Below, in pieces: positions 7,601 to 38,860 of a stretch of 38,860 nt of DNA (position 1 is the first letter of the stretch; the number at the start of each line of letters is the position of its first letter). This stretch comes from Bacteroidaceae bacterium. GTDB taxonomy: Bacteria > Bacteroidota > Bacteroidia > Bacteroidales > Bacteroidaceae. The stretch covers positions 1-38,860 of the forward strand of contig JAFUKC010000024.1 in the NCBI GenBank assembly GCA_017467885.1, written 5' to 3'. The notes under the pieces were generated by a model. The model saw only the letters and a list, made by a program, of their open reading frames with translations. It was not told the DNA's origin and searched no databases. The translations under genes and the position numbers were made by a program.

Positions 7601-8088
7601 TTGGAAAGAAGTTCGGTAAGCTTATGAAGAGTGTTAACGTTGCTGTTACCGAGATGTCGCAGCAGCAGATTGCCGAACTTGAAAAGAATGCTTCCATCAC
7701 TTTGCAGGTTGAAGGTACCGATGCTGTTATTGAGCTTGCAGACGTGGAGATATACAGCGAGGATGTTCCCGGTTGGACTGTTGCCAACGAAGGTGCTTTG
7801 ACTGTTGCTCTTGATGTGGAAGTTACCGATGATTTGCGACGTGAGGGTGTTGCACGCGAGATAATTAAGCGTATACAGGCAATGCGTAAGGAGCAAGGCT
7901 TGGAAATTACCGACAGAATAGCTGTGGAGGTTTCTCGAAACGAGGCAAGTGATGCTGCCGTGCAGCAGTTCGGCGACTATATATCGAATCAGGTTCTTGC
8001 CGATACATTGGAAATTTGCGATGGAGTAAATGGTGAAGTTGTCGAGTTCGATGGTTATTCGCTCAATATTTCCATTAAAAAAGTATAA
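4609..8088 (+). CDS. ileS: Isoleucine--tRNA ligase
   Basis: This 1159-residue cytoplasmic class I aminoacyl-tRNA synthetase charges tRNA-Ile. The HIGH-type signature appears as PGIHH (56-60) after FFEGPPSANG, and KMSKR is at 709-713. The CP1 editing domain lies between them, including the WTTTPWTLPSNTALCVG stretch and GTGIVHIAPTFGADD. The anticodon-binding domain and a long C-terminal extension (after about residue 900) follow. The length and the absence of a visible C-terminal zinc-finger Cys cluster fit the longer, eukaryote-like IleRS type, which in other bacteria is often mupirocin-resistant; that resistance is inference only. It is the first gene of a five-gene operon, 25 bp before the DksA-like gene. 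Confidence 0.97.
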   Translation: MKKKFPVYSQLNLPQLNKEVLKEWDENDVFSKSMTEREGATSFVFFEGPPSANGMPGIHHVMARSIKDTFCRFKTMKGFQVKRKAGWDTHGLPVELGVEKKLNITKEDIGKKISVDDYNRNCREEVMKYTKEWTDLTRRMGYWVDLDNPYITYENSYIESLWWLLKQLYNKGLLYKGYTIQPYSPAAGTGLSSHELNQPGCYRDVKDTTAVAQFRMLDPKSEMTQWGTPYFIAWTTTPWTLPSNTALCVGPKIDYVAVQTYNGYTGEPVTVVLAKSLLAAHFNPAGAELSLDAYKPGDKVIPYKVVGEYKGTDLVGMHYEQLFPWVKPIVKDGDKIVEASADAFRVIPGDYVTTEDGTGIVHIAPTFGADDAFVAKAAGVPSLFMVNKKGETRPMVDFQGKFWNIDELDDEFVTKCVDVELYSQFAGAYVKNAYDPQYTVDGKYDEKAASKAETLDIALCMVLKQQNKVFRIEKHVHNYPHCWRTDKPVLYYPLDSWFVRASEMKERMSELNKTIQWKPESTGTGRFGKWLENLNDWNLSRSRYWGTPLPIWISEDGEQKCIGSIAELYDEIEKSVETGVMVSNPYKDKGFVPGDYSKENYDKIDLHRPYVDDIILVSSTGKPMKRELDLIDVWFDSGAMPYAQIHYPFENKEALDNRTIYPADFIAEGVDQTRGWFYTLHAIATMVFDSVAYKTVISNGLVLDKNGDKMSKRLGNAVDPFETIDKYGSDALRWYMITNSAPWDNLRFNEEGVKEVIRSFFGKLYQTYSFFTMYANVDGFTFEEPEIPVSERPELDRWILSALNSLVKDVNACLNDYEPTKAGRLIQEFVIDNVSNWFVRLSRKRFWGSDMSADKLSAYQTLYTCLETVARLMAPIAPFYAERLYQDLTGVTGRGEAASVHLAKYPECNESCVDGELEYRMHLAQQISSMVLALRKKEQIIVRQPLQKIAVPTTDEVMKSHIEAVKQLILSEVNVKELQFVEGDGILVKKIKCNFRTLGKKFGKLMKSVNVAVTEMSQQQIAELEKNASITLQVEGTDAVIELADVEIYSEDVPGWTVANEGALTVALDVEVTDDLRREGVAREIIKRIQAMRKEQGLEITDRIAVEVSRNEASDAAVQQFGDYISNQVLADTLEICDGVNGEVVEFDGYSLNISIKKV

Positions 8089-11046: not shown

Positions 11047-13347
11047 ATGCCATTAAGAAAGGTAATATATATATTGATATGTTCGCTATTAACAGTATCG
11101 TGCTCGGTGTCAAAGTTCATCCCCGAGGATAAATATTTGTTGAATAGCGTCGAAATTGTATCGTCGCAGAGTGATGATATGATTCTGAAAGCACGTTCAT
11201 ATGTGCGTCAGCAACCCAACTCGAAACTATTTGGTGTTGTGAAGCTTCCAATGTACACTTATGCACTATCGGGACGCGATACAACCAAATGGGTAAACCG
11301 TTTTTTGCAAAAGATAGGCGAGCCACCTGTTGTCTACAGTCCTGAACTTGCCGAGCAATCAAGGGCAAACATCGAACAGATGTTGCACAACGATGGCTAT
11401 ATGCATGCCAAGGTCGCTTTATCTACATCGGTGGGTAAAAAGAGAAAAATCGATGTCCGATATTCTTTAGAAGAGAAATTAAGATATTCGGTAGATAAGA
11501 TACAAATAGTAACCGAGGATACAGCCATAGCCGGAATATTACATGAAAATTCGGAATCTTCGTTGCTCTATAAAGGAATGCCGTTCAGTGTGGATATAAT
11601 GGAGGCCGAGCGTCGCCGAATAACCTCCTTGCTTAATGACAAAGGTTATTATCGCTTTCAGAAAGAGTATATAACGTATATTGCAGATACGGCCTATCAA
11701 TCTACCAAGATAAATATTCAAATGAATATTGCTCTTTATCAACCGGCTTCGGATGCCGAACCTACTTCGCACAAGGTTTATCATTTCGATAAAATATCGT
11801 TCGTTTCGGGAGCCGGGTTGCGCCTTACGCAAGATGCCCTATCGTTATGCGACTCTATACATTTTCATAATTATAATGTCCGTTACAAAGGGAAACAATT
11901 CATATCTCCCAAAACCTTGGTTAACAATACATATATAGAACCCGGTGCACTATATTCGCAACAGGCTGCCGACCGTACATACAGTTCGCTTGCCCAATTA
12001 ACGGCATTGCGGTATACAACATTGCGAATGGTTGAGCACCCCGATACATCTTTACTTGATTGTTATATAATGTTCGAACAGAGCAAACGTCGATCCATCA
12101 GTTTCGATATTGAAGGAACAAATACAGCCGGAGATTTGGGCGCGGCAGCATCCATAACTTTCTCCGACAGGAACCTTTTTAAGCGTTCCGAATTGCTCTC
12201 ACTTCGTCTTTATGGTGCGTATGAAGCCATTTCGGGTTTGTCGGGATATTCCGGTGACAGTTATTACGAATATGGTGCCGAGTTAAGCTATCGTATGTTC
12301 GGTGGTTTGGTGTCACGTCTTATCCCTGTAGAGAGACGTATGATGAAGTCGTCAACATTGTTTACATTGAAATATAATTCACAAGAGCGTCCCGAATTCG
12401 ACAGACGTCTGTTGTCGGGTGCATGGAGTTATACATGGAGTCGTAACAGGCACTCGTTGCACAAGATAGACGTTGTAGATTTAAACTACATTTATGTACC
12501 TTGGATATCAGAAACATTCAAGCACGAGTATCTCGATAGTATCTCGAATCGTAATTCAATTCTCAAATATAACTACGAGAATCTGCTTATAACAAAGATG
12601 GGATATTCCTATTCCTATACATCTGCAAAAGCCGGTGACCGTGCACCGCGAAGAACAATATTCTCTCTACGCACCAACGTGGAGTCCTCGGGCAATCTGT
12701 TGAATATTGCAAACGAAATTTTAGGCGGTCATCGTAACAGTTCGGGGCAGTACACTTTTTTAAATATTGCGTATGCGCAATATGTGAAAGGTGATTTCGA
12801 TTTTACAACATACGTTACCATTGACGATCGTAACACTCTTGTCATGCATTTGGGTGTAGGTGTGGCATATCCCTATGGTAACTCTACTATATTGCCGTTT
12901 GAAAAACGATACTTCTCGGGTGGAGCAAACAGTATGCGTGGCTGGAGTGTGCGTACTCTTGGTCCCGGAAGTTTCCGCAGCAACGACAGTAATATCGATT
13001 TTATAAATCAATCGGGTGATTTAAAGCTCGATTGCAATGTCGAATTGCGCTCGCATCTCTTTTGGAAGTTGAATTCGGCGCTATTCATTGACGCCGGTAA
13101 CATTTGGACGTTGCGTGCCTATAAAGAACAGCCTGGCGGGCAGTTCGATATCGGCACATTTTATAAGGATATTGCCTTCTCTTATGGCTTGGGCTTGCGC
13201 TTCGAGTTCGATTTATTTGTTTTTCGACTCGACGGTGCGATGAAGGCTGTCAATCCGGCATATAGCGGGAGTGATAAATATCCAATATTTCACCCCGATT
13301 TCAGTAGAGATTTTGCATTGCATTTTGCAATAGGTTATCCCTTCTGA
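11047..13347 (+). CDS. tamL: TamL-like BamA/TamA-family outer membrane lipoprotein
   Basis: This 766-residue Omp85-family protein starts at the ATG at 11047. An upstream in-frame ATG at 10975 would bury the signal peptide. The N-terminus is a lipoprotein signal (IYILICSLLTVSC), so the protein is lipidated, unlike proteobacterial TamA. POTRA-like domains follow (about residues 30-330, including the LNDKGYYRF-type pattern), then a C-terminal 16-strand beta-barrel. The barrel carries the L6-loop motif SMRGW (629-633, VRGF/Y-like) in GGANSMRGW. The family inserts proteins into, or moves lipids to, the outer membrane; Bacteroidetes pair TamL with TamB, which is not in this window. An essential surface-assembly role is known for the Flavobacterium homologue. 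Confidence 0.85.
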   Translation: MPLRKVIYILICSLLTVSCSVSKFIPEDKYLLNSVEIVSSQSDDMILKARSYVRQQPNSKLFGVVKLPMYTYALSGRDTTKWVNRFLQKIGEPPVVYSPELAEQSRANIEQMLHNDGYMHAKVALSTSVGKKRKIDVRYSLEEKLRYSVDKIQIVTEDTAIAGILHENSESSLLYKGMPFSVDIMEAERRRITSLLNDKGYYRFQKEYITYIADTAYQSTKINIQMNIALYQPASDAEPTSHKVYHFDKISFVSGAGLRLTQDALSLCDSIHFHNYNVRYKGKQFISPKTLVNNTYIEPGALYSQQAADRTYSSLAQLTALRYTTLRMVEHPDTSLLDCYIMFEQSKRRSISFDIEGTNTAGDLGAAASITFSDRNLFKRSELLSLRLYGAYEAISGLSGYSGDSYYEYGAELSYRMFGGLVSRLIPVERRMMKSSTLFTLKYNSQERPEFDRRLLSGAWSYTWSRNRHSLHKIDVVDLNYIYVPWISETFKHEYLDSISNRNSILKYNYENLLITKMGYSYSYTSAKAGDRAPRRTIFSLRTNVESSGNLLNIANEILGGHRNSSGQYTFLNIAYAQYVKGDFDFTTYVTIDDRNTLVMHLGVGVAYPYGNSTILPFEKRYFSGGANSMRGWSVRTLGPGSFRSNDSNIDFINQSGDLKLDCNVELRSHLFWKLNSALFIDAGNIWTLRAYKEQPGGQFDIGTFYKDIAFSYGLGLRFEFDLFVFRLDGAMKAVNPAYSGSDKYPIFHPDFSRDFALHFAIGYPF

Positions 13348-13382
13348 TGAGGTATTAATGGTTAAAAGTAAAAATTATATAT

Positions 13383-14189
13383 ATGGAAATTCGTTTTATG
13401 AGTATTGGCAGTGGCAGTTGTGGCAACTGCTATTATATCGGAGTGGACGACTATGGAATACTGATTGACGCCGGTATACACACCAAAACAATCAGGGCCG
13501 CCCTTAAAAAAGAGGGTATCCCTTTCGAGAGTATATGTGCTGTGTTTGTTACGCACGACCATGCCGACCACATTAAATCATTGGGAGTTATTTCGTCGAA
13601 GGCAAATATACCGGTGTATGCAACCCGCGAAGTACACGAGGGTATAAACCGTAATTATTGTATTACAAAACCGGTAGACCCGATGTATGCCCGTTATGTG
13701 GAAAAAGAGGAGAAAACAAAATTTCGTGCATTTGAGATAACACCGTTCGAGGTTCCTCACGATGGAAGCGATAATGTTGGTTATTACATAGAGATAGGCG
13801 ACATCTCCTTTTGTATTGCAACCGATTTAGGTTGTATAACTGAAACTGTTGCCTATTATTTGGATAAGGCAAATTATCTTGTGATAGAATCGAATTACGA
13901 GGAGCAGATGCTGATGATGGGGCGTTACCCGCAGTTCTTGAAGAACAGAGTGGCCAGTTCCACAGGGCACTTAAGCAATCAGACAACAGCAAAATATATT
14001 GCTGCCAACTTCAACGAGCATCTTAAACATATATGGTTGTGTCATTTGAGCGAGGAAAATAATCATCCCGAACTTGCATATAAAGCAATGGAAATGGAAT
14101 TCGGCAGCTATGGAATTATTGTGGGAAAGGATGTGAAAGTCGATGTGTTGAAGCGTGCCACTCCGTCTAAAATATTTTATTTGGGTTGA
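13383..14189 (+). CDS. MBL-fold metallo-hydrolase (YycJ/WalJ-like)
   Basis: This 268-residue cytoplasmic metallo-beta-lactamase-fold protein carries the zinc motif THDHADH (57-63), a conserved SIGSGSCGNCYY start, a later VPHDGSDN His and DLG Asp (about 120-145), and TGHLSNQT (about 198). The layout matches YycJ/WalJ proteins, which have 5'-3' exonuclease activity and have been tied to replication or mismatch repair. The closest role is uncertain. It lies 35 bp after the TamL gene and may share its transcript. Confidence 0.88.
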   Translation: MEIRFMSIGSGSCGNCYYIGVDDYGILIDAGIHTKTIRAALKKEGIPFESICAVFVTHDHADHIKSLGVISSKANIPVYATREVHEGINRNYCITKPVDPMYARYVEKEEKTKFRAFEITPFEVPHDGSDNVGYYIEIGDISFCIATDLGCITETVAYYLDKANYLVIESNYEEQMLMMGRYPQFLKNRVASSTGHLSNQTTAKYIAANFNEHLKHIWLCHLSEENNHPELAYKAMEMEFGSYGIIVGKDVKVDVLKRATPSKIFYLG

Positions 14190-14260
14190 GTGGATAATTA
14201 AAAAAAAGACCTGTAAGAATTTCAAGTAGATAAATTTAAACAGCTTCTAAAAAAAATAGC

Positions 14261-14268
14261 TATCTTCG
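14261..14268 (+). promoter_or_regulatory. Possible -7 box for tyrS
   Basis: TATCTTCG lies 56 nt before the tyrS ATG. It differs from TAnnTTTG by one base, and the same eight-mer precedes the helicase and DUF4494 genes in this window. The -33 element is unclear. Confidence 0.35.
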
Positions 14269-14324
14269 CATCACGAATTGTGTATTACAAACATTAGAGT
14301 AAATATAAATAAAAACATACAGAT

Positions 14325-15620
14325 ATGAACTTTGTACAAGAACTTAAATGGCGTGGTATGATTCAGGATATGACGCCCGGGACGGAGGAGCAGTTACAGA
14401 AGGAGATGACAACTGCATATTTGGGTATCGATCCTACTGCCGATTCATTGCATATAGGCCATTTGGTGGGAGTAATGATGTTGCGTCATTTTCAGCGTTC
14501 GGGCCATCGTCCCATTGCGCTTATTGGTGGTGCTACCGGTATGATTGGTGACCCTTCCGGTAAGTCGAAAGAGCGTGTCTTGATTGATGAAGACCGTTTG
14601 CGTCATAATCAGGAGGCCATACGTAAACAGTTGGCTTTGTTCCTCGATTTCGAGAGTGATGCTCCCAATGCTGCAGTGTTGGTGAACAACTATGATTGGA
14701 TGAAGAACTTTTCGTTCCTCGATTTTATCCGTAACGTAGGCAAGCTTATCACAGTTAATTATATGATGTCGAAGGATTCTGTAAAGCGTCGTATATCGGG
14801 TGATAATGGTGCCGATGGTATGTCTTTTACCGAGTTTTCTTATCAATTGTTGCAAGGCTACGATTTTGTACATCTTAACGAGAGCCATGGCTGTAAATTA
14901 CAGTTGGGTGGTGCCGACCAATGGGGAAATATTACCACAGGAACCGAAATGATACGTAAGATTTCGGGTAATGAAGCATTTGCACTTACCTGTCCTCTTA
15001 TTACTAAAGCCGACGGAAAAAAATTCGGAAAGACCGAACAGGGTAATATTTGGCTCGACAAGCGCTATACTTCGCCTTATCGTTTCTATCAGTTCTGGCT
15101 TAATGTAAGTGACGAAGATGCCGACAGATATATAAAGATATTCACATCTATCAGCAAAGAAGAAATTGATGCTTTGCTTGCCGAGCATGCTCAAACTCCG
15201 CATTTACGCCTTTTGCAGAAACGTTTGGCACAGGAAGTTACTGTTATGGTGCATGGCAAGGAGGAGTATAACAAGGCTGTTGAAGCGTCGAGCATATTGT
15301 TTGGTAATTCCACTTCAGAGGCACTTCGCTCGTTGGACGAGGATACTTTGCTTGCTGTATTTGACGGTGTTCCGCGTTTCGAGGTTGAACGTGAACTTTT
15401 CGAAAATGGAATAAAAGCGGTTGAACTAACCACTGATGCTGCTGCAATATTTCCGTCGAAAGGCGAGATGCGTAAATTGGTGCAGGGTGGTGGAGTTTCC
15501 ATAAATAAGGAAAAACTTGCAGCATTTGACCAGCCGATAACAACAGACAGATTGTTGAATGATAAATATTTGCTTATTCAAAAGGGTAAGAAAAACTATT
15601 ATTTGATAATTGCAAAATAA
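14325..15620 (+). CDS. tyrS: Tyrosine--tRNA ligase
   Basis: This 431-residue cytoplasmic class I synthetase charges tRNA-Tyr. HIGH is at 43-46 (SLHIGHLVG), the Tyr-binding and ATP-binding core includes [13 protein letters not shown] (about 68-80), QLLQGYDF is at about 178, [11 protein letters not shown] is at about 193, and the KMSKS-type loop reads KFGKT (233-237). An S4 RNA-binding domain forms the C-terminus (about 365-431, [15 protein letters not shown]). Length and motif order are those of the TyrZ/TyrS bacterial form with KFGKT. It stands 135 bp after the MBL gene with its own possible promoter, and ends at a hairpin. Confidence 0.97.
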
Positions 15621-15640
15621 AAGAATTACAAATATTGTAC

Positions 15641-15673
15641 TTAAGGTGTTGCTATAAATTAGCAGCACCTTAA
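15641..15673 (+). terminator. tyrS terminator hairpin
   Basis: TTAAGGTGTTGCT (15641-15653) pairs with AGCAGCACCTTAA (15661-15673) through 13 positions, one of them G-T, with a 7-nt loop. It starts 20 bp after the tyrS stop. No strong T-run follows. Confidence 0.65.
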
Positions 15674-15748
15674 TTGTTGATAATCATGTAGTTCAAATTC
15701 CTTTTTATTCCTAATGATGAAAAACTTGTAATTTTATTTGTTTTTTTG

Positions 15749-15779
15749 TTTGCACAGTAAAAATTAATTAGTACCTTTG
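15749..15779 (+). promoter_or_regulatory. Consensus promoter of tRNA-Lys
   Basis: TTTG (15749-15752), a spacer of exactly 19 nt and TACCTTTG (15772-15779) are a perfect match to the Bacteroidetes primary promoter. The tRNA begins 23 nt after the -7 box. Confidence 0.85.
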
Positions 15780-15801
15780 CAACGCTTTAAGGCAAAGAGT
15801 T

Positions 15802-15874
15802 GCGCTGTTAGCTCAGTTGGTAGAGCAATTGACTCTTAATCAATGGGTCCAGGGTTCGAGTCCCTGACGGCGTA
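15802..15874 (+). tRNA. tRNA-Lys (anticodon CTT)
   Basis: This 73-nt sequence folds as a cloverleaf. The acceptor is GCGCTGT/ACGGCGT (G-T pairs at positions 1-72 and 5-68), the D arm GCTC...GAGC, the anticodon stem ATTGA/TCAAT around loop CTCTTAA (anticodon CTT), and the T arm CAGGG-TTCGAGT-CCCTG. The discriminator is A. CCA is not encoded (the next bases are CAA), so it is added after transcription. Confidence 0.96.
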
Positions 15875-15876
15875 CA

Positions 15877-15933
15877 AAGAGGAAAATGTTGTAAATCATG
15901 TATTTGACATTGAAGAACAAACATTTTCCTCTT
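15877..15933 (+). terminator. Terminator-like hairpin behind tRNA-Lys
   Basis: AAGAGGAAAATGTT (15877-15890) is the exact reverse complement of 15920-15933 with a 29-nt loop. It starts three bases after the tRNA. The downstream sequence is AT-rich without a clear T-run. Confidence 0.55.
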
Positions 15934-15987
15934 AATATTTATCTTTAAACGTGTAGAATTGCCGAAATTGGTAAGAAAATGTACAAA

Positions 15988-16218
15988 TTATAGCGGGTCA
16001 TAGGAAGTTCTGTGTAAGTAAACCTGTAAATTGGAAATTATGGTTAGCCATAATTTTTTATCAACTGCCCCTCTGCGGTTTGCTTTGATAAATTTGATTT
16101 TTGCATTAAAGAATTCTGCCATTGCATTTGACAAACTATAGTTGTAAAGTTTTTTCATGGTGCAAAGAAACTCTTTTTTTTGAGACGGATAATTAAATTT
16201 GCTACACTGAATTTCTAT
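15988..16218 (-). pseudogene. Transposase C-terminal remnant
   Basis: The minus strand from 16218 to the stop at 15988 reads through 76 codons. The stretch YSLSNAMAEFFNAKIKFIKA with the following NRRGAVD matches the C-terminal end of ISL3/ISAon1-type transposases (pattern SNA.AE.FNAKIK...RGV.D). The whole catalytic DDE region is missing: an in-frame TAA lies just upstream and no further transposase coding is visible. It is a decayed fragment between tRNA-Lys and the His-rich gene. I could not find flanking inverted repeats that define the old element. Confidence 0.65.
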
Positions 16219-16231
16219 TTACCCAAGGCTG

Positions 16232-16690
16232 TTAGTCGGTCAATAGTGAGAAAAATCCTATTAACCCTATTGCAACAGCTGCCGCCTCGGCTGCGTTGTT
16301 GTCGCAGTGATGCACTACAACAGGGTGGGGTGCAGGCTTGTGATGTACTACAACGGGGCGGGGTGCAGGCTTGTGAACTATAACCGGTGCATGGTTGTGT
16401 TTTGCTTTGTTGTCATGCCTGATGGCGCCTCTCTTTTTTTCATGTTTAGGCTTGTATATGTTCTTGCCGCCAATATCTTTTTTCTGCTCGCCACGTTTGT
16501 TCTCTATCCGCACCGGTTGCTTGTTGTCTTTTTTCTCACCTCGCTTTTGTGCCAATACATCGCTTGGCATTCCTATTATACCTATAAGAAATCCGGCCAT
16601 TACAATTTTCTTTGCAACACCAATAATACTCTCCTTCGACAAAGCAAAAAACTGTTTTCCACTCTGTTCTTTCTTACTCAAATTTTTCAT
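16232..16690 (-). CDS. His/Pro-rich exported protein of unknown function
   Basis: This 152-residue protein has a basic N-terminus, a hydrophobic stretch (about residues 24-43) and a likely signal-peptidase site after VLA (47). The mature part is very basic and rich in Lys, Arg and His. Near the C-terminus are two copies of KPAPxPVVVHH, encoded by a 33-bp DNA tandem repeat, then a short hydrophobic end (AAEAAAVAIGLIGFF). Clustered HH pairs could bind metal, but that is only inference. I recognise no family. It is a single minus-strand gene whose downstream neighbour is the dead transposase. Confidence 0.6.
   Translation of the reverse strand: MKNLSKKEQSGKQFFALSKESIIGVAKKIVMAGFLIGIIGMPSDVLAQKRGEKKDNKQPVRIENKRGEQKKDIGGKNIYKPKHEKKRGAIRHDNKAKHNHAPVIVHKPAPRPVVVHHKPAPHPVVVHHCDNNAAEAAAVAIGLIGFFSLLTD
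16307..16372. repeat. Two 33-bp tandem repeat units
   Basis: Units 16307-16339 and 16340-16372 are the same length and differ at only three positions. Each encodes the 11-residue KPAPxPVVVHH unit of the His/Pro-rich protein, so copy number could change in frame. A partial third unit follows from 16373. Confidence 0.85.
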
Positions 16691-16752
16691 AACTTGTCGT
16701 TTTAAAAGTTAAACAAATCTTCTCTTTGTGTATGGCAAAGATATTGATGATA

Positions 16753-16797
16753 AATTCCCCCTGCAACGTTAATTTCCTATTCGTTGCAGGGGGAATT
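16753..16797 (-). terminator. Terminator of the nan operon
   Basis: AATTCCCCCTGCAACG (16753-16768) is the exact reverse complement of 16782-16797, a GC-rich 16-bp stem with a 13-nt loop. It lies 28 bp beyond the stop of the last nan gene. No long T-run follows on the minus strand. It could also insulate the His-rich gene. Confidence 0.7.
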
Positions 16798-16824
16798 CCT
16801 ATAAGTGATGGGGTTTATACCCAC

Positions 16825-17928
16825 TTATTCGATTAAGAACCTGTGTATCTGTGGTGTGCGTATCCCCGGCTTAAGTTCTCCACCGATATAATATACAGCA
16901 TTTCGATAGTTTATAGCTATCGCACCGGCACGTGCAAATACAGGGTGGCTGTATAGAACGCGCCAACTGTTTTTGTTTGTGTCGTATTGCATAAGGTTGG
17001 GGTTGAAACGATACCATTCGGACGGTTGAAGCATGTATTCTTCTTTACTTATGAACGAATATTTACCCGATATCGCATCGGTGAATATCAGACGATTTAC
17101 ACCACCGGCAGCAATAATTGCAGTGTCGTTCAGCAGTGTTGCTGTACCACCCGAGAGCGAGAGCTCCTCATCTTTGCTTATATGGGGCAATGTGTTCCAT
17201 TCTTTGTTGATATGATTATAACAGATGCCATCGGCGTGCACCGTTGCTGCTGTATTGTTGTCGGCCGGGCAGAAGCCACTCCATATATACAGTGCATCCT
17301 TTGTTGCCGCACATATAGGTTGTACACGTGGAGGTGATGGCATGTCCGGCAGTTCACACCAATTTCCGTCTCTGTTTTTTATATCAAGCATAAATACTTT
17401 AGCCGATGGTTTACCCGATGCATTGCCACCTGCAATATATAACCTTCCGTCGGATATTGCTCCTGTGGCATTGTCGATGGTGCAGGGGAGGGGAGGTAGG
17501 GTGTCTATCCGACAATTATCGGCAAGGTCTATGCAATAGACTGTCGATAGCGGATGCTCCTCGTTGTTGCCACCGACAATATACCATTTGTTTCCATCGC
17601 AGACAGATACGCCGTAGGCCGACTTCTCGGGTAGCGACGATACCTGTTCCCACTGTAATGTATCGCCAAGTGTTGCCCTGTATATTCCTTGATAATAACG
17701 TTTAGAACCACCTTGGGCTGCCGGAGTGGTCGGGAAATTGCAACCGCCTGCAATATATATATGATTATCGTATATAGCGGCGTAACATGCCGATACACCA
17801 AATTCGTATCCCTGTTCGAAGCCGGGCATACACCCAATTTCCTTTAAAGGGCATGCGCCCTTATGGCTGTTTGTACAGCTAAAGAGCGCAATACCTGTAA
17901 ATATTAATAAAATATATCGTTTCATCAT
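16825..17928 (-). CDS. nanM: NanM-like mutarotase (N-acetylneuraminate epimerase), lipoprotein
   Basis: This 367-residue Kelch-type beta-propeller resembles the cyclically permuted mutarotase group and is likely to convert alpha-N-acetylneuraminate to the beta form. The signal peptide ends in LFSC, so it is a lipoprotein at the periplasmic or outer-membrane surface. Kelch motifs recur: IYIAGGCNF, WYIVGGNNEE, LYIAGGNASG, IIAAGGV and VYYIGGEL. I chose the start at 17928, where its ATG overlaps the nanT stop codon as ATGA. The next ATG, at 17925, is equally possible, and a much earlier start would lie inside nanT. Position as the last gene of a nanL-nanE-nanT operon supports the role. Confidence 0.85.
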   Translation of the reverse strand: MMKRYILLIFTGIALFSCTNSHKGACPLKEIGCMPGFEQGYEFGVSACYAAIYDNHIYIAGGCNFPTTPAAQGGSKRYYQGIYRATLGDTLQWEQVSSLPEKSAYGVSVCDGNKWYIVGGNNEEHPLSTVYCIDLADNCRIDTLPPLPCTIDNATGAISDGRLYIAGGNASGKPSAKVFMLDIKNRDGNWCELPDMPSPPRVQPICAATKDALYIWSGFCPADNNTAATVHADGICYNHINKEWNTLPHISKDEELSLSGGTATLLNDTAIIAAGGVNRLIFTDAISGKYSFISKEEYMLQPSEWYRFNPNLMQYDTNKNSWRVLYSHPVFARAGAIAINYRNAVYYIGGELKPGIRTPQIHRFLIE

Positions 17929-19187
17929 TCCATATTGATTGTCTTGGGGCGCAGTGCAAAGAATTGTATCATCAGTGACAGTACTGTAACACCGCCAAGC
18001 AGTGCAAAGCCTGTTCCCAGAGAGAGACTGCCTAAAGCTGTTGTTATGGCAGCACCGCCAAGAACTCCCGACATATTTATGAAACCGTATGCTGTGGCAC
18101 GCTGATGTGACGGAACAAACTGACACAGTATAGGCATTGTGTTTGTGTCAAAGAAACCGTAACCGATACCAAAGCAAAGAATGGCAAGGATAACTGCTGT
18201 AAGGCTGTTTCCGAGCCCCATGAAGATAAGTGACGGCACAATCAAGGCAAGGCCTATGCAGCTTGTGAACACACGTCCACGTACATTCTTCTGTACCCAT
18301 TTATCCGAGATTCTTGCACCAATCATGGCACCAACGAACGATGCTCCGGCAAGGCAGATGACTGCAGTGGGGCCGGCATAATCCATAGCCTCTTTGGGCG
18401 TAAGGCCGAAACCGCCTGCAATAACCTTTGCGACAAGCTCGGGCAACCAATTCTTTGTGGCCCAACCCGGCATACTCAATGTGGTAAATACGAAAAGTAC
18501 AGCCCAAAAAGCCATATTGCTAAGTACAAGCATAATACTTTTAAATATACTTTGACGATTGGTGTCATTTGTGCTTGCTACACTCTTTTCGCGTCCCGGA
18601 TCCTTTACAAAAGCAATAAGTACTATAGAATATACCATACCTACCAAACCGCAAACAAGGAAAACTGTGTGCCAACTGCTCAACTGCTCCGAGAATATCG
18701 AGCCGAATCCGCCTGCTATCTGTCCCAAATAGAGTCCTGTCATGTGTATTCCTATGGCAGTTGAGCGTGTCTTGCCATTGTGGATGTCGGCAATGAGCGA
18801 GAGGGCTGCAGGAATATACAGTGCCTCGCTGAATCCCATTATGGCACGCAGAATGTACAGTTCTTTATATGTGTCGACATATCCCATCAAGAATGTTACA
18901 GCCGACCACACAAACAGGCTTCCAACAATAAGGTTCTTGCGGTTTACCCGGTCGGCAATGGTGCCCGAGATGGGGCTCATAAGGCCGTATATCCACATGA
19001 ATGCGGCCATCAAGGCACCCCAACCCCAAGGGCCGGTGTAACTTTCGGCAACCTCAACAATGTCTTCAGCCATATGAAAACGCATGGTGCTGAGCATCTG
19101 GCGATCCATATAATTAAGGAACGCAACACCCGATAGCAGTATGACAACCAGCCAAGGGTACCATTTTTTTTCTTTTATCTTGTTCAT
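17925..19187 (-). CDS. nanT: MFS sialic acid transporter
   Basis: This 420-residue inner-membrane protein of the major facilitator superfamily has about 12 hydrophobic segments. The loop motif GTIADRVNRKN (between segments 2 and 3) and an early FLNYMDRQML near segment 1 are typical of anion:cation-symporter-like MFS members, including the Bacteroidetes NanT. Substrate assignment rests on context: it lies between the epimerase gene (14 bp upstream) and the nanM-like gene (4-bp overlap). I start at the ATG at 19187 because the next upstream ATG lies inside the end of the epimerase gene. Confidence 0.85.
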   Translation of the reverse strand: MNKIKEKKWYPWLVVILLSGVAFLNYMDRQMLSTMRFHMAEDIVEVAESYTGPWGWGALMAAFMWIYGLMSPISGTIADRVNRKNLIVGSLFVWSAVTFLMGYVDTYKELYILRAIMGFSEALYIPAALSLIADIHNGKTRSTAIGIHMTGLYLGQIAGGFGSIFSEQLSSWHTVFLVCGLVGMVYSIVLIAFVKDPGREKSVASTNDTNRQSIFKSIMLVLSNMAFWAVLFVFTTLSMPGWATKNWLPELVAKVIAGGFGLTPKEAMDYAGPTAVICLAGASFVGAMIGARISDKWVQKNVRGRVFTSCIGLALIVPSLIFMGLGNSLTAVILAILCFGIGYGFFDTNTMPILCQFVPSHQRATAYGFINMSGVLGGAAITTALGSLSLGTGFALLGGVTVLSLMIQFFALRPKTINME

Positions 19188-33395: not shown

Positions 33396-33440
33396 CATCC
33401 CTTATCTAATATAGGTGAGGGATGTTTTTTTTCTTTTTTT
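33396..33440 (+). terminator. nspC terminator
   Basis: CATCCCT (33396-33402) pairs with AGGGATG (33418-33424), extended by wobble pairs, and is followed by an uninterrupted T-rich tract of about 16 nt with one C. This is a classical intrinsic terminator and marks the edge of the conserved backbone. Confidence 0.9.
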
Positions 33441-33708: not shown

Positions 33709-34917
33709 ATGCGAAGTACATTTAAGGTGCTGTTCTACGTGAACGGAAGCAAAGAGAAAAACGGTATTGTCCCAATTATGGGACGAGTGACAATCAATGG
33801 TTCTGTGGCTCAATTCAGTTGCAAGCAGAGTATCCATAAAGACCTATGGGATGTGAAAGGCAACCGAGCAAAGGGCAAGAGCAAGGAATCGAGAGACATC
33901 AATTTGGCTTTGGATAATATCAAGGCTCAAATCATCAAACACTACCAACGCATTTCAGATAGAGAAGCGTTCGTAACTGCCGAAATGGTACGCAATGCCT
34001 ATCAAGGTATCGGAACGGAGTATGAAACCCTCCTCCGAGCATTTGACAAGGAGAACGAAGCCTTTGCCAAGCGTGTTGGCAAGGATCGCTCATTGAGTAC
34101 ATATCAAAAGTATCTTACCGTAAGGAAATATCTTGCCGAGTTTATCAAGGTAAACTATAAGCGTTCCGATATTGCAATGAATGAACTTACGGAGGATTTC
34201 ATTCGTGATTATTGCTTGTATCTGAGAAATGAGGTAGGACTTGCTCAATCATCAGTGTGGATATATTCAATACCATTGAAGCACATTGTAGCCACTGCTC
34301 ACTATAATGGTAAGATTGCACGTAATCCATTTGCTCAATATAAGGTTGACCCCGACCACAAAGAACGAGGTTTTCTAACCGAAGATGAGTTGCAAGCCTT
34401 TACAACGGTTGAATTGAACAATCCCGATTTGGAGCTGGCAAGAGATTTATTCGTATTCGGCTGTTGGACGGGAATATCATTCATTGATATTAAAAACTTG
34501 ACAACGGAGAACATCACAATGTTGGGTGGTTCTCCTTGGATTGTATCAAAGCGACAAAAGACAGGCGTACCGTTCCAAATCAAATTGATGGATATACCTA
34601 TGCAGATTATCAAGCGATATGAGCCATACAGAATAAGCAACAATCTTTTCAACATCGGCAGCCACGACACTATAAACAAACGCATAAAAGAGGTGGCTAA
34701 ATTATGTGGCATTGAGAAGCGAACTTCGTTCCATCTGAGTAGGCACACATTTGCGGTGTTAGCCTTGAACTATGGTATGCCAATAGAAAGTGTGAGCAAA
34801 ATTCTCGGACATACGAACATTACCACAACGCAGATTTACGCTAAAGTAACCAATACCAAACTTGAACACGATATATCAATGTTTGAGAGTAGAGTTTGTG
34901 AAAGATTTGCAATATAG
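33709..34917 (+). CDS. Tyrosine site-specific integrase (IntDOT-like)
   Basis: This 402-residue tyrosine recombinase integrates and excises a mobile element. An arm-binding N-terminal domain (about 1-90), a SAM-like core-binding domain (about 105-205) and a catalytic domain (about 220-395) are in the usual order for Bacteroidetes integrases. Visible catalytic residues are Lys284, the HLSR box with His342 and Arg345, His368 in LGHTN and nucleophile Tyr377. The first catalytic Arg, expected after TG in the TGLR-like motif, is replaced: TGISFID has Ser257. The same change is known in CTnDOT integrase, so this is probably functional. It faces inward from the nspC junction, marking the left end of the element. 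Confidence 0.92.
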   Translation: MRSTFKVLFYVNGSKEKNGIVPIMGRVTINGSVAQFSCKQSIHKDLWDVKGNRAKGKSKESRDINLALDNIKAQIIKHYQRISDREAFVTAEMVRNAYQGIGTEYETLLRAFDKENEAFAKRVGKDRSLSTYQKYLTVRKYLAEFIKVNYKRSDIAMNELTEDFIRDYCLYLRNEVGLAQSSVWIYSIPLKHIVATAHYNGKIARNPFAQYKVDPDHKERGFLTEDELQAFTTVELNNPDLELARDLFVFGCWTGISFIDIKNLTTENITMLGGSPWIVSKRQKTGVPFQIKLMDIPMQIIKRYEPYRISNNLFNIGSHDTINKRIKEVAKLCGIEKRTSFHLSRHTFAVLALNYGMPIESVSKILGHTNITTTQIYAKVTNTKLEHDISMFESRVCERFAI

Positions 34918-34922
34918 TAGGT

Positions 34923-35294
34923 ATGAAACGAGCAATAATAACAATCAGCGAATCGGGCAATGTGAACATTCCAAGCGGTAATGTTTGGATGTCCGAAGTG
35001 GAGTTAATGGAGTTGTTCGAGGTAATAGCTCCGACACTCCGAGCCGCCATCAAAGCAATATATAAGAGTGGAACACTCTGCCCTGTAATCACTCAACGAT
35101 GCGACACGATTACTCCTACAAGTTGGGCGACCTTCTACAACCTTGAAGCGGTCATCGCTCTTGCATTTAGGTTGAACACCTATGGGGCAAGCAGGATAAG
35201 GCAAAAGGTGTTGGAGGCTTTGTGTCAACGAAAAGAGAATGGAATATGTTGGATTATGTCATGGAATAATAATGCTATTCCTCACTGCAATTAA
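34923..35294 (+). CDS. Small protein of unknown function, integrase-linked
   Basis: This 123-residue protein starts 5 bp after the integrase stop and is surely co-transcribed with it. The N-terminus (ITISESGNVNIPSGNVWMSE) reads as beta strands and ELMELFEVIAPTLRAAIKAI as a helix-turn-helix-like stretch. FYNLEAVIALAFRLNTYGA recalls the phage-regulator/RhuM-like N-terminal pattern seen in small genes next to Bacteroides integrases. The end (CQRKENGICWIMSWNNNAIPHCN) is unlike that family and may reflect an altered C-terminus. A regulatory role in the element is only inferred. Confidence 0.65.
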   Translation: MKRAIITISESGNVNIPSGNVWMSEVELMELFEVIAPTLRAAIKAIYKSGTLCPVITQRCDTITPTSWATFYNLEAVIALAFRLNTYGASRIRQKVLEALCQRKENGICWIMSWNNNAIPHCN

Positions 35295-35409: not shown

Positions 35410-35441
35410 CTTGTTTTTATGGAATTTTATTTGTATATTTG
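35410..35441 (+). promoter_or_regulatory. Promoter of the ATPase-RloB cassette
   Basis: TATATTTG (35434-35441) is an exact -7 box with CTTG (35410-35413) 20 nt upstream. A start near 35448 leaves a leader of only about 20 nt before the ATPase ATG. The surrounding 170 bp are strongly AT-rich, in contrast to the chromosomal backbone. Confidence 0.6.
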
Positions 35442-35468: not shown

Positions 35469-36767
35469 ATGATAGCAGAATTCACCATTGAAAATTTTTT
35501 CTCAATAAAGTCTCCGCAAAAGATAAGTTTTGAGCCTTCATCAGATATCTTTATGTCTGATGAATATTCCTACGAAGTTAAGAACGGAGTAAAATTGCTT
35601 AAAGTGGGTATCATATATGGTGCTAACGCTTCTGGTAAAACCAATATTTTGAATGCTATTGATTTTTTCAGAATGCTTGTACTCAGGATGCCTAAAGATA
35701 GAAATGAAAAAACGGGGGTGGTCCCTTTTATGCTTGATGAAACATCTAAGAATGAAACCACTAAAATGTCGATGATATTCTATATCAATCAGTCGAAGTA
35801 CATCCTTACTTTTGAATTGGATGCAAAATATATCTATTCAGAAACGCTAACTGTTTATGATTCTATCCGACCCACCAAATTGTATAGCCGCAGTTATGAT
35901 GCTACGTCAGATTCTTCAATCATAGAATTCGGCGTAAACCTTAAAATGACAAAGAAAAGTCAGGATGTGATTTCAGGTAACACTATCAATAACAGCAGCG
36001 TGCTTGCCGCTTTTGGTAAAAGTAATGTAGAACGGACTAAACTAAATGATGTGTACGATTACTTTGCCAAACAAGTTAAAGAGGTGTTGGCACCTGGAAT
36101 GTTGCTCTCGGGCTATGTAAAATCTCGATTAGATAAGGATGAATCGGGAGATCTAAAAAAATTCATTCTAAACTTTCTAAAAGCTTCTGACTTTAACATA
36201 GAAGATGTCATATTGCGAGAAGAAGAGAAGTTGATTACTCCTGAATTGGAGCAACTGATTCAAAATACCCCTATTGGTGATGATGCAAAAGCAGATATGC
36301 TTAGGAAGGGGAAAATTACAAATACTGAATTAACATTTAAGCACAAAGCTGGTGACAGGCTTTACGATTTGTCGGAAGAATATGAGTCCAATGGTACAAT
36401 GAGATTTTTGGGTATGGCTGTGATACTGAATTTCTTGTTAAAGACCAATCGTTTTGTACCTATTGATGAAGTCGAAACAAGTATTCATTACGAACTTCTG
36501 GCATATTTTATAAAAGTATTCTTGGCAAATAGCGAAGGGACATCCCAAATGCTATTGACAACCCACGATATCAATCTTCTCAACGAAGATTTCATTCGCC
36601 GAGATACGATATGGTTTACAGATAAGGATGAATTCGGAGAAACTAAAATAGTACGTCTATCATCCTTGGGGCTACATAAAAATCTCTCCCCATATAATGC
36701 TTACAAACAAGGGAAGTTGGTAAAACTACCGTTCCTTGGTAGTCAATATATTAACCTAAACGATTAA
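35469..36767 (+). CDS. AAA-family ATPase of a RloAB/AbiL-type defence pair
   Basis: This 432-residue SMC/ABC-like ATPase begins at the ATG at 35469, which matches the family start MxxEFTIENFxSIK. Walker A is GANASGKT (51-58). The ABC-signature-like LSEEYESNGTMRFLG spans 301-315, Walker B and catalytic Glu form VPIDEVETSIH (330-340), and TTHD at 364-367 is the switch His. The 60-300 interval is the coiled/lid region. The form is that of AbiLi/RloA or PARIS AriA ATPases, which sense infection and unleash a partner effector. The partner gene follows after 4 bp. Base composition is more AT-rich than the backbone, in keeping with transfer. Confidence 0.82.
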   Translation: MIAEFTIENFFSIKSPQKISFEPSSDIFMSDEYSYEVKNGVKLLKVGIIYGANASGKTNILNAIDFFRMLVLRMPKDRNEKTGVVPFMLDETSKNETTKMSMIFYINQSKYILTFELDAKYIYSETLTVYDSIRPTKLYSRSYDATSDSSIIEFGVNLKMTKKSQDVISGNTINNSSVLAAFGKSNVERTKLNDVYDYFAKQVKEVLAPGMLLSGYVKSRLDKDESGDLKKFILNFLKASDFNIEDVILREEEKLITPELEQLIQNTPIGDDAKADMLRKGKITNTELTFKHKAGDRLYDLSEEYESNGTMRFLGMAVILNFLLKTNRFVPIDEVETSIHYELLAYFIKVFLANSEGTSQMLLTTHDINLLNEDFIRRDTIWFTDKDEFGETKIVRLSSLGLHKNLSPYNAYKQGKLVKLPFLGSQYINLND

Positions 36768-36771
36768 TGAT

Positions 36772-37374
36772 ATGAGGCGAGCAGTAACAAAGAGTATCGC
36801 TATCATAGGCGAGGGAGAAACAGAATGGTTCTACTTTGATTCTTTGAGGGTGGCGTGTCGCTATCCTTTCAAAGTTGCACCAGATTTTCCGCAACATAGC
36901 GACATTAATCATATTCTTAAATTGGTTGAATCATATTTGAATAAACAGTATGACTTTATTGTCTGCCTGTTCGATATGGATAGGCTATACCAATTCCCAA
37001 CTGAAATGCAATTGTATCAAAAGGCAAAGAGTAAGTATCGTAGAAAGAAGTATGCAGGAAGGGTTATGTTTGTAGAAACGAATCCTTGTACAGAATTTTG
37101 GTTCTTGCTTCATTTTCTGCCAAATCTGGTTTGTCGCAGATATGATAGTTATGAACAATTGCTTCCTGAATTACAGAAGTATATGCCAGGATATGAAAAG
37201 ACTAAACGTTATTTCATCCGCACCAATCTTTACAAATACCTAATAGAAAATGGGGACTTGGAAAGAGCTATGTTAAATTCCGAAAAGCTGTGCCAGTTAT
37301 GCAAAGAATCACCAGAAGATATAATTGCATACTCAGAGATACATAAGGTTATCAGCATGCTTAATAAATTATAA
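36772..37374 (+). CDS. RloB/AbiLii-like TOPRIM effector
   Basis: This 200-residue protein matches RloB (the AbiLii partner), a TOPRIM-like nuclease or effector. The acidic start motif is GEGETEWFYF (13-22), with Glu14 and Glu18 in place of the TOPRIM Glu. DMD (68-70) in CLFDMDR is the metal-binding pair. NPCTEFWFLLHF (104-115) is the family hallmark (NPxFExWLLLHF). It is 4 bp downstream of the ATPase, so the two are expressed together and probably form one complex. In related systems the ATPase restrains the effector until phage infection. The target (tRNA, DNA or other) cannot be told from sequence. Confidence 0.8.
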   Translation: MRRAVTKSIAIIGEGETEWFYFDSLRVACRYPFKVAPDFPQHSDINHILKLVESYLNKQYDFIVCLFDMDRLYQFPTEMQLYQKAKSKYRRKKYAGRVMFVETNPCTEFWFLLHFLPNLVCRRYDSYEQLLPELQKYMPGYEKTKRYFIRTNLYKYLIENGDLERAMLNSEKLCQLCKESPEDIIAYSEIHKVISMLNKL

Positions 37375-37395: not shown

Positions 37396-38860
37396 ATGAC
37401 ACAAGAAGAATTTGAACACAAACATCATATTAAACTTCTATCTAATCATTTCTTAGAAAATGATTGGGTGTGGTTATATAAGAAGCAGCATTACAAAGAC
37501 GGAGCAATTGACATTTACTATAAGTATTGGTGTTATTTGGCAGCCCCATCTAAAATAATAAATGCGTTATCTTCATATATTGCGGATATTCCTGATGACA
37601 CAAGAGGTGATTTAATCAATGGATGTGTATATAAACCTTTTGTACACGATGGCTTTGAACCATTGACAATAATTCGTGATTTCAAAAACGGCGCTGAACG
37701 ATTTGCTCAAATTAGGATTGCAGAAGAAATTATTTTTTACCATAATCTGTATGAGGTACATAAAGAGAATACAAGGCTGTTCTTTGACGATAAAGATGTC
37801 CTGGTTTGTGAAGTCACTGACACTTCAGCAAGAATACTTAACAGATACCTTAAAGAATTTATGGCTGCAAAGAAAATGGATTTGGTATGCCATTGTCAAT
37901 CAGAAATAGAATACAATATAAACGAATACTCTCCAAATTTTAAATATAAATGTACATCGGAACAAGGTGAAGATATAAGTCAAACAGACTCCCAGCAGTA
38001 CAATATTATGGTTAATCCATGTTTTACACAAATGCGTAATTGGTTCAATGGAAAGTCAGTTGCTAATCACACGCCTCTTAAATGCTATCAAAAATCAATG
38101 AACACTCAATATATTATTGCAACCGATAAAAATGGAGTAGACATCTTGTCTGATGAAAACACCTTTCCATATACCCCAATTTTCTTTGACAAGAAATTAC
38201 TTTCTCTATATATGGGGCATGAAAAACACTGTGTTGATTCACTTAGAATTACTACACCAGATTTCTCCATCCGTTGCGACAATGATAACGAAAATTATAT
38301 CGTTGCATTTTTAAAAGATGTTTTAGATCTACCGCATAGAGAGCAAATTGTTTGGAAAGGTTATAACATCGCTTCTGACGGGCGCAGTTTTAGTAAACAT
38401 TTTCAAGAAACAATGGTTCAAGGTAATTGGAATTCTTTTGCCGAATCAATTGACTTTGGTTTCAGGGACACATACAAAACATTATTAAAGAAGTGGGAAG
38501 ATAATTATAAATTCCCGATTTTTAAACCGTTAAATCATGCTCAGAGTGAAATTCCTGACAAAATTAATCTTTTACAAGACAATGACTATTTTGCTCTAAG
38601 TTCGTTGCTTCAACAAATAGGGTTGATGTTTTATGATAGTTTAAATAAGGAAGAACTTTATAAAAACATCCTTGAACCGACAGAACAAGAAAAGAAAGGG
38701 ACATCAATCGCATACTTACACCGATTATTTGGTGAACTTAAAATTGATGATATAGATTTTAATACTTTCTTAAAAAATGCCAGGACATTACGTTCAATAT
38801 TTTCACTCGCTCATCGTAATAGTATAAGAATTACAGATACAAATGAAAAGAAAGCATTAA
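37396..38860 (+). CDS. Large protein of unknown function, possible third defence component (incomplete)
   Basis: From the ATG at 37396 the frame stays open through 488 codons to the window edge, so the protein is truncated here only by the window. It begins 21 bp after the RloB-like gene on the same strand and is equally AT-rich. No signal peptide, membrane segment, Walker motif or known nuclease motif is visible. Notable stretches are WVWLYKKQHYKDGAIDIYYK (24-43), EEIIFYHNLYE (110-120), KEFMAAKKMDL (153-163), a Cys/His-rich piece VCHCQSEIEY (164-173) and a C-terminal NARTLRSIFSLAHRN (461-475). I do not recognise the family. It may be part of the RloAB operon, or an independent gene in the same island. 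Confidence 0.7.
   Translation, partial: MTQEEFEHKHHIKLLSNHFLENDWVWLYKKQHYKDGAIDIYYKYWCYLAAPSKIINALSSYIADIPDDTRGDLINGCVYKPFVHDGFEPLTIIRDFKNGAERFAQIRIAEEIIFYHNLYEVHKENTRLFFDDKDVLVCEVTDTSARILNRYLKEFMAAKKMDLVCHCQSEIEYNINEYSPNFKYKCTSEQGEDISQTDSQQYNIMVNPCFTQMRNWFNGKSVANHTPLKCYQKSMNTQYIIATDKNGVDILSDENTFPYTPIFFDKKLLSLYMGHEKHCVDSLRITTPDFSIRCDNDNENYIVAFLKDVLDLPHREQIVWKGYNIASDGRSFSKHFQETMVQGNWNSFAESIDFGFRDTYKTLLKKWEDNYKFPIFKPLNHAQSEIPDKINLLQDNDYFALSSLLQQIGLMFYDSLNKEELYKNILEPTEQEKKGTSIAYLHRLFGELKIDDIDFNTFLKNARTLRSIFSLAHRNSIRITDTNEKKAL

Follow-up and report, generated by a model that had tools for sequence, protein, structure and literature searches.

An unnamed multi-phylum protein family with a near-invariant Arg–His pair, found beside RloAB on a Bacteroidaceae integrase island, is a candidate anti-phage HEPN-type RNase

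The island and its third gene

The stretch of DNA analysed here, termed the window, comprises an entire contig (G000:C20, 38,860 bases) in a genome bin that is 63% complete. At its right end lies an island in which an integrase is followed by an RloAB pair and by a third gene, ORF3. The features are as follows (A4 and A6 are alignments of ORF3 relatives, described below).

33709..34917, + strand: tyrosine recombinase/integrase of the island (Pfam Phage_integrase 2.5e-18, Phage_int_SAM_5 3.9e-14, Arm-DNA-bind_5 2.1e-13)
34923..35294, + strand: 123-aa gene between the integrase and RloA (PADLOC PDC-S05 1.3e-10, partial similarity)
35434..35441, + strand: putative Bacteroidota -7-like element TATATTTG upstream of rloA
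35469..36767, + strand: RloA/AbiLi-like AAA ATPase (PADLOC AbiLi 1.5e-67; Pfam AAA_21 3.1e-28)
36772..37374, + strand: RloB/AbiLii-like gene (PF13707 E 5.7e-29; PADLOC AbiLii 8e-19)
37396..38860, + strand: ORF3, unnamed family protein (ATG start; frame 37396..38859, 488 codons, open at its end)
37723..37755, + strand: block EEIIFYHNLYE, residues 110–120 of ORF3 (E110 in 90%, E111 in 93% and L118 in 97% of the 73-row A4)
38341..38367, + strand: EQxxWxxxN block (E316, Q317, W320 and N324 in 73/73 A4 rows)
38557..38860, + strand: C-terminal domain from residue 388, proposed to be HEPN-type (R and H the sole invariant columns of the 90-row A6)
38791..38814, + strand: R466-x6-H473, the Rx4-6H motif RSIFSLAH (R and H in 73/73 A4 rows)

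A sequence-only reading of this DNA had reported a co-directional frame of at least 488 codons starting 21 bp past RloB, behind an ATPase–RloB pair and an integrase, and the coordinates, the PADLOC AbiLi and AbiLii matches, PF13707 and the Pfam integrase domains confirm this arrangement. According to PMC10440598, RloAB/AbiL consists of an AAA ATPase and an RloB/AbiLii TOPRIM-like protein, with AbiL being bicistronic; the two genes upstream of ORF3, an RloA-type AAA ATPase and RloB in tandem (35469–36767 and 36772–37374), belong to this class, related loci of which lack ORF3. The same reading called the island AT-rich, which is accurate for RloA (35.6% GC), RloB (36.3%) and ORF3 (32.4%) against 42.5% for window positions 1–33400, but not for the integrase (41.0%) or the 123-aa gene (43.8%). 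The latter aligns with a portion of numerous PDC-S05 models in PADLOC and has a counterpart at 7528–7899 of the locus L055.

We take TATATTTG at 35434..35441 to be a putative Bacteroidota -7-like element. No such element was present in the 21 bp separating RloB from ORF3, and one lies inside rloB at 37065. The presence of an element before RloA and its absence between RloB and ORF3 suggest that the three genes may share one transcript, although the pattern, TANNTTTG, occurs in the window no more often than in shuffled sequence.

Because the window is a whole contig, ORF3 is cut by the contig end. The remainder, which the sequence-only reading had wished to see, was recovered from L055, a near copy of the island that a genome-contig scan located in a Bacteroidales MAG of water-deer caecal origin. 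There, ORF3 is intact and stops after 522 aa, and the window copy therefore lacks its last 34 codons and the stop. Over their common part, the two copies differ at 8 nucleotides and 3 amino acids (99.5% identical). This intact copy, together with relatives encoded in 107 genome-contig stretches, establishes ORF3 as a real gene.

Comparison of the two islands revealed an uneven pattern of nucleotide identity: 91.5% for the integrase, 85.2% for the 123-aa gene, and then 99.8% for RloA, 99.3% for RloB and 99.5% for ORF3. Left of window position 33433, the islands are unmatched (209/392 aligned positions, 53%). The two copies of each of RloA, RloB and ORF3 are thus far closer than those of the adjoining integrase, which indicates a more recent common origin and fits exchange as a block; the trio probably moved together once, as a single event read from two islands. 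On the opposite strand to the right of the L055 ORF3 lies a second integrase, which matches that of the window by sequence search. The same flank (11772–18493, - strand) holds what we take, by reading alone, to be a helicase-like protein of 972 aa and two methylase-like ORFs, and an additional module of restriction-like type thus seems to be present in the L055 island.

A widespread family with a near-invariant Arg–His pair

At E 1, none of Pfam, PADLOC, NCBIfam and PHROGs yielded a match to window ORF3, and at E 10 no PDB sequence did. When the 78 members of alignment A3 were searched against the profile libraries and the PDB, only scattered weak matches emerged, none of them a credible match to a solved structure in the PDB. 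The best, to an OB-fold model of DNA polymerase delta (one of 78 members, E 0.0031), and those to a SAP-domain model (seven of 78 members, E up to 0.017) were taken as chance. The family is unnamed in the copies of Pfam, NCBIfam, PHROGs and PADLOC that we searched, so the gene is as unrecognised as it had first appeared; six protein accessions of relatives likewise had no mention in open PMC text.

Distribution of the family is wide and patchy. It occurs in 5/399 genomes of the same taxonomic family, one of the five matches being a 32-residue piece, and in 16/395 genomes of the phylum (the genome of the window is included in both counts). The 107 stretches came from one scan, and the best 80 of them were taken further. 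Two viral contigs carry relatives, as do plasmids of Pseudomonas, Agrobacterium, Ensifer, Rhizobium, Rhodococcus, Streptomyces, Nostoc, Moraxella and a Fusobacteria bacterium; phage records searched with the window protein yielded none. Family members span many bacterial phyla and one archaeal MAG. On a tree of 73 rows, 13 named groups, one of them archaeal, require 17 group changes in all against a possible minimum of 12, and Pseudomonadota rows need 5. This suggests some horizontal transfer of the family, of which the tree count is no proof.

Among the matches listed, the closest relative outside L055 is at L056 549–2149 (27–29% identical); an ORF pair upstream of it presumably resembles AbiEi/AbiEii, by reading of the sequence alone. 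More divergent members (L042–L053, L135 and L168, mostly 567–637 aa) come from other Bacteroidota, a viral contig and a Pseudomonas plasmid, and retain R and H in motifs such as LRHGDAH, MRVGDAH and LRNEIRGH. Four of the five loci L077, L100, L112, L115 and L087 have the family gene broken into two ORFs; these five are decayed copies or frameshifts.

Alignment A4 contains 73 rows from 72 of 82 loci (80 from the genome-contig scan and 2 viral), with L064 entered twice. L072, L077, L081, L087, L100, L112, L115, L118 and L122 were left out as cut, split, short or near-duplicate, and L135 as distant. Ten residues are invariant in A4: F264, Y272, D295, E316, Q317, W320, N324, R466, S467 and H473. 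Three segments had been singled out by eye as likely handles, and all are conserved in this alignment, EEIIFYHNLYE and RSIFSLAHRN strongly (R466, S467 and H473 of the latter in every row) and KEFMAAKKMDL moderately (L152 80%, M161 75%). The number of residues between the Arg and the His is 5 in 63 A4 rows, 4 in 8 and 6 in 2.

The Arg–His pair persists beyond A4. Both residues are present in 24/24 further, mostly more distant rows, with 4–6 residues between them, and in 9/10 pieces left out of A4 or of the 24-row set, the exception being L087, whose altered C-terminal tail has no His; together, 106/107 relatives examined retain the pair. The residue after the Arg, expected to be polar in a HEPN motif, is Ser in all of A4; in the 24 distant rows it is S, H, N, T or Q and also V, L or G. 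Among those 24, ten depart from EQxxWxxxN (L042, L043, L046, L053, L166, L167, L169, L170, L171 and L173) and two more lack that part of the protein. The 90-row C-terminal alignment A6 has no invariant columns other than R and H.

According to PMC3710099, an Rx4-6H motif defines the HEPN superfamily, and RNase L, RloC and PrrC require its His to act as nucleases; this is the motif that all A4 rows, all 24 distant rows and every left-out piece except L087 carry. Comparisons with HEPN profiles and structures were less telling. A Pfam HEPN profile matched 1/78 members (E 0.083), and PDB searches with the family returned no HEPN chain. The profile tests (hmmsearch and hhalign) were controlled with a reversed profile, the N-terminal region and RloB. 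Against an Abi_C set, a first hhalign run gave 1.5% and paired the motifs (RloB control 1.1%), whereas a second gave 12.6% but did not pair them (controls 0.5% or less); against ApeA-HEPN and PF05168 sets it gave nothing. A rank test for Abi_C reached an AUC of 0.81, but 0.68 with the reversed profile, and for the PF05168 set there was no gain over its controls. High-ranking Abi_C proteins were dropped as homology support for want of a motif-on-motif alignment. Since profile methods do not confirm HEPN, it is at the level of the motif that we infer a HEPN-type C-terminal domain.

Neighbourhoods of the family and its relation to RloAB

RloB is present in 122/399 same-family genomes and the ORF3 family in 5/399, the two 399-genome sets being taken as identical from their matching handle ranges. 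The two are adjacent only in the genome of the window. They co-occur in one other, G306, but there the ORF3 family is represented by the 32-residue piece, which sits on a different contig; the other ORF3-positive genomes (G056, G071 and G075) are absent from the RloB-positive list. Viewed from RloAB, the DNA fetched for nine related loci (RloB 37–88% identical) contained no relative of ORF3; one locus, L206, is uninformative as it ends 266 bp past RloB. Viewed from the family, a phmmer search with the window RloB across 104 family loci, three of them duplicates, found RloB at L055 only, a search in which a divergent RloB could be missed, and RloA-like ATPases lie near members only in L055, L012/L126 (one locus) and L133. 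A three-gene RloAB system was also not recognised in the literature, judged from titles and the starts of abstracts. On the genome counts and both sets of loci, we reject, as a general claim, the idea raised by the sequence-only reading that ORF3 is a fixed third partner of RloAB, for which it had proposed looking for homologues beside RloAB pairs. ORF3 is linked to RloAB locally, in one lineage, and is no constant component of it.

Differing genes fill the slot after closely related RloAB pairs in L204, L205 and L208 (RloB 69–88% identical). By reading alone, we take L208 3063–3713 to resemble a trypsin-like protease and L204 5283–6548 to resemble a JAB/Mov34 protein. A variable third-gene slot downstream of RloB is possible.

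The surroundings of the family elsewhere are rich in defence genes. Twenty close neighbours were scanned of 61 that qualified (same strand, at least 180 aa, at most 188 bp away), and 13 of the 20 matched PADLOC at 1e-8 or better compared with 1/10 control ORFs; this choice favoured long, close neighbours and included L133, picked after its RloA-like match was known, and the controls were the ten longest ORFs from the non-island part of the window, from one genome only. The sole control match was a UvrD-type helicase. The matching neighbours comprise three type IIG restriction–modification (R-M) enzymes, one type I R, AbiH, AbiLi and a PtuA/PDC-M01A-like ATPase, along with two Upx, one PDC-S73/Aga_TIR, PDC-S26, PDC-S39 and PDC-S58. 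Type IIG enzymes stand directly before family members at L060, L062 and L070. For the remaining 7/20, no PADLOC model matched at 1e-8, and metabolic or otherwise ordinary genes also occur among the neighbours (ribonucleotide reductase, methylmalonyl-CoA mutase and starch synthase domains). Tally scans, which count families and not loci, took in 86 immediate neighbours out of 251 candidates lying no more than three ORFs away. In the sample tested, then, homologues are not found mostly away from defence genes, and the association with defence that had been supposed is supported.

On plasmids, one member lies inside a type I R-M operon, another beside SAVED, nucleotidyltransferase, ThiF and Mov34/MPN/PAD-1 genes, a third between DUF499 and ThiF genes, and a fourth adjoins gamma-mobile-trio genes; the annotated neighbours at the remaining plasmid loci are hypothetical genes, ATP-binding proteins, toxin–antitoxin genes, integrases and transposases. 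No neighbour recurs throughout. In an all-against-all BLAST of 1349 ORFs of at least 90 aa from 101 deduplicated loci (E 1e-6, with half of the shorter protein and 40% of the longer one covered), no neighbour family occurred in more than 5 loci, ruling out a constant partner gene outside RloAB at the thresholds used.

One neighbourhood has a paired arrangement of its own. In L012 8193–11127 (the same as L126, from Prevotella aff. ruminicola Tc2-24), a 424-aa ORF overlaps the start of the ORF3 relative by 59 bp, and roughly 3 kb beyond this ORF pair there is an AbiLi-like ATPase. The SIR2_2 similarity of the 424-aa ORF is weak (E 0.017, under the Pfam cut-off, tested on the 387-aa form in L005). 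The ORF and the ORF3 relative are possibly a local two-gene unit.

A proposed stand-alone abortive-infection RNase

Several known systems resemble ORF3 in part. PMC11087260 describes Tha, a HEPN defence RNase from a Staphylococcus prophage, as a 301-aa protein that carries the motif R265NSIMH270, lacks a discernible N-terminal domain and has phage tail proteins as its trigger. Like Tha, ORF3 is a single protein on mobile DNA with no recognised N-terminal domain and a C-terminal R-x4-6-H; unlike Tha, it is 522 aa long, and the comparison, made by description, is with a functional analogue (PMC11087260). HEPN-type Abi proteins, which according to PMC3710099 include AbiJ, AbiF/AbiD, AbiU2 and the C-terminal domain of AbiA, several of them adjoining R-M systems, share with ORF3 and with Abi_C (PF14355) proteins an Rx4-6H type motif behind varied N-terminal regions. 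The ORF3 family differs from them in being matched by no Pfam or PADLOC profile, and its comparison with Abi_C was not significant. DefensePredictor reported four further validated systems with HEPN domains (PMC13092281); overlap of the ORF3 family with these, or with the many predictions of DefensePredictor, is possible.

The large family-specific N-terminus and the C-terminal Rx4-6H motif, resembling Tha, lead us to propose a sensor N-terminus and an RNA-cutting C-terminus. On balance, and with confidence a little better than even, we favour ORF3 as a putative stand-alone, mobile anti-phage RNase of HEPN type that acts by abortive infection, has an N-terminal sensor and forms a second layer to RloAB. 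The N-terminal region (about 385 aa) would hold ORF3 inactive and sense infection, and the C-terminal domain (about 135 aa) would be a HEPN-type endoribonuclease using R466 and H473. Once triggered, ORF3 would cleave RNA and halt growth of the infected cell. We infer all four elements of this scheme, namely the HEPN fold, the RNase activity, N-terminal sensing and abortive infection. In the window, ORF3 would be the last known gene of an RloA–RloB–ORF3 unit on the integrase island, and there it probably provides an independent second layer alongside RloAB.

Three other readings were weighed against this proposal. RloA, RloB and ORF3 could be one system here, in which RloA and RloB sense or gate and ORF3 is a dependent effector or sensor. 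The 21 bp spacing on one strand, the near-identity between islands of just these three genes beside more divergent integrases and 123-aa genes, and the RloA-like ATPases near two other members (L012/L126 and L133) all speak for such a system; the genome counts, with adjacency in one genome, the nine related RloAB loci (one uninformative) with other or no third genes, and the finding of RloB by phmmer at no other member's locus but L055 make it quite unlikely. The suggestion that ORF3 is a new effector, sensor or inhibitor in a three-gene system thus survives in part: the gene is defence-linked and plausibly an effector, but not a fixed RloAB partner.

It is also unlikely, in our estimate, that ORF3 is a non-nuclease defence protein, such as a binding or regulatory subunit of an R-M system, with EQxxWxxxN as the functional block and R and H as structural residues. 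Here the invariance of E, Q, W and N throughout A4 is informative, as the HEPN reading explains no role for this block, and so is the position of members immediately behind type IIG enzymes or within a type I R-M operon; however, EQxxWxxxN departs in 10/24 distant rows and R and H in none, and a constant partner is lacking. Least probable, and to our minds very unlikely, is that ORF3 is island cargo unrelated to phage defence that lies beside defence genes by chance: although ordinary metabolic neighbours and the 7/20 without a PADLOC match would fit this, the excess of PADLOC matches over controls and the patchy distribution over many phyla do not. The putative stand-alone HEPN-type RNase remains our preferred account.

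An extension of that account, which we consider somewhat improbable, is a layered module in which the AAA ATPase/TOPRIM-like pair and a new HEPN-type RNase would travel as one mobile unit, with the RNase elsewhere serving as a plug-in second layer behind type I or IIG R-M, CBASS-like, AbiH or AbiL systems, as PrrC does for PrrI. The analysis corrects a tempting reading, as a gene can be tightly linked to RloAB in one lineage and still be no fixed third partner. It also adds a large multi-phylum family, unnamed in the libraries searched, to the strong anti-phage candidates, and two near-invariant residues make this family directly testable.
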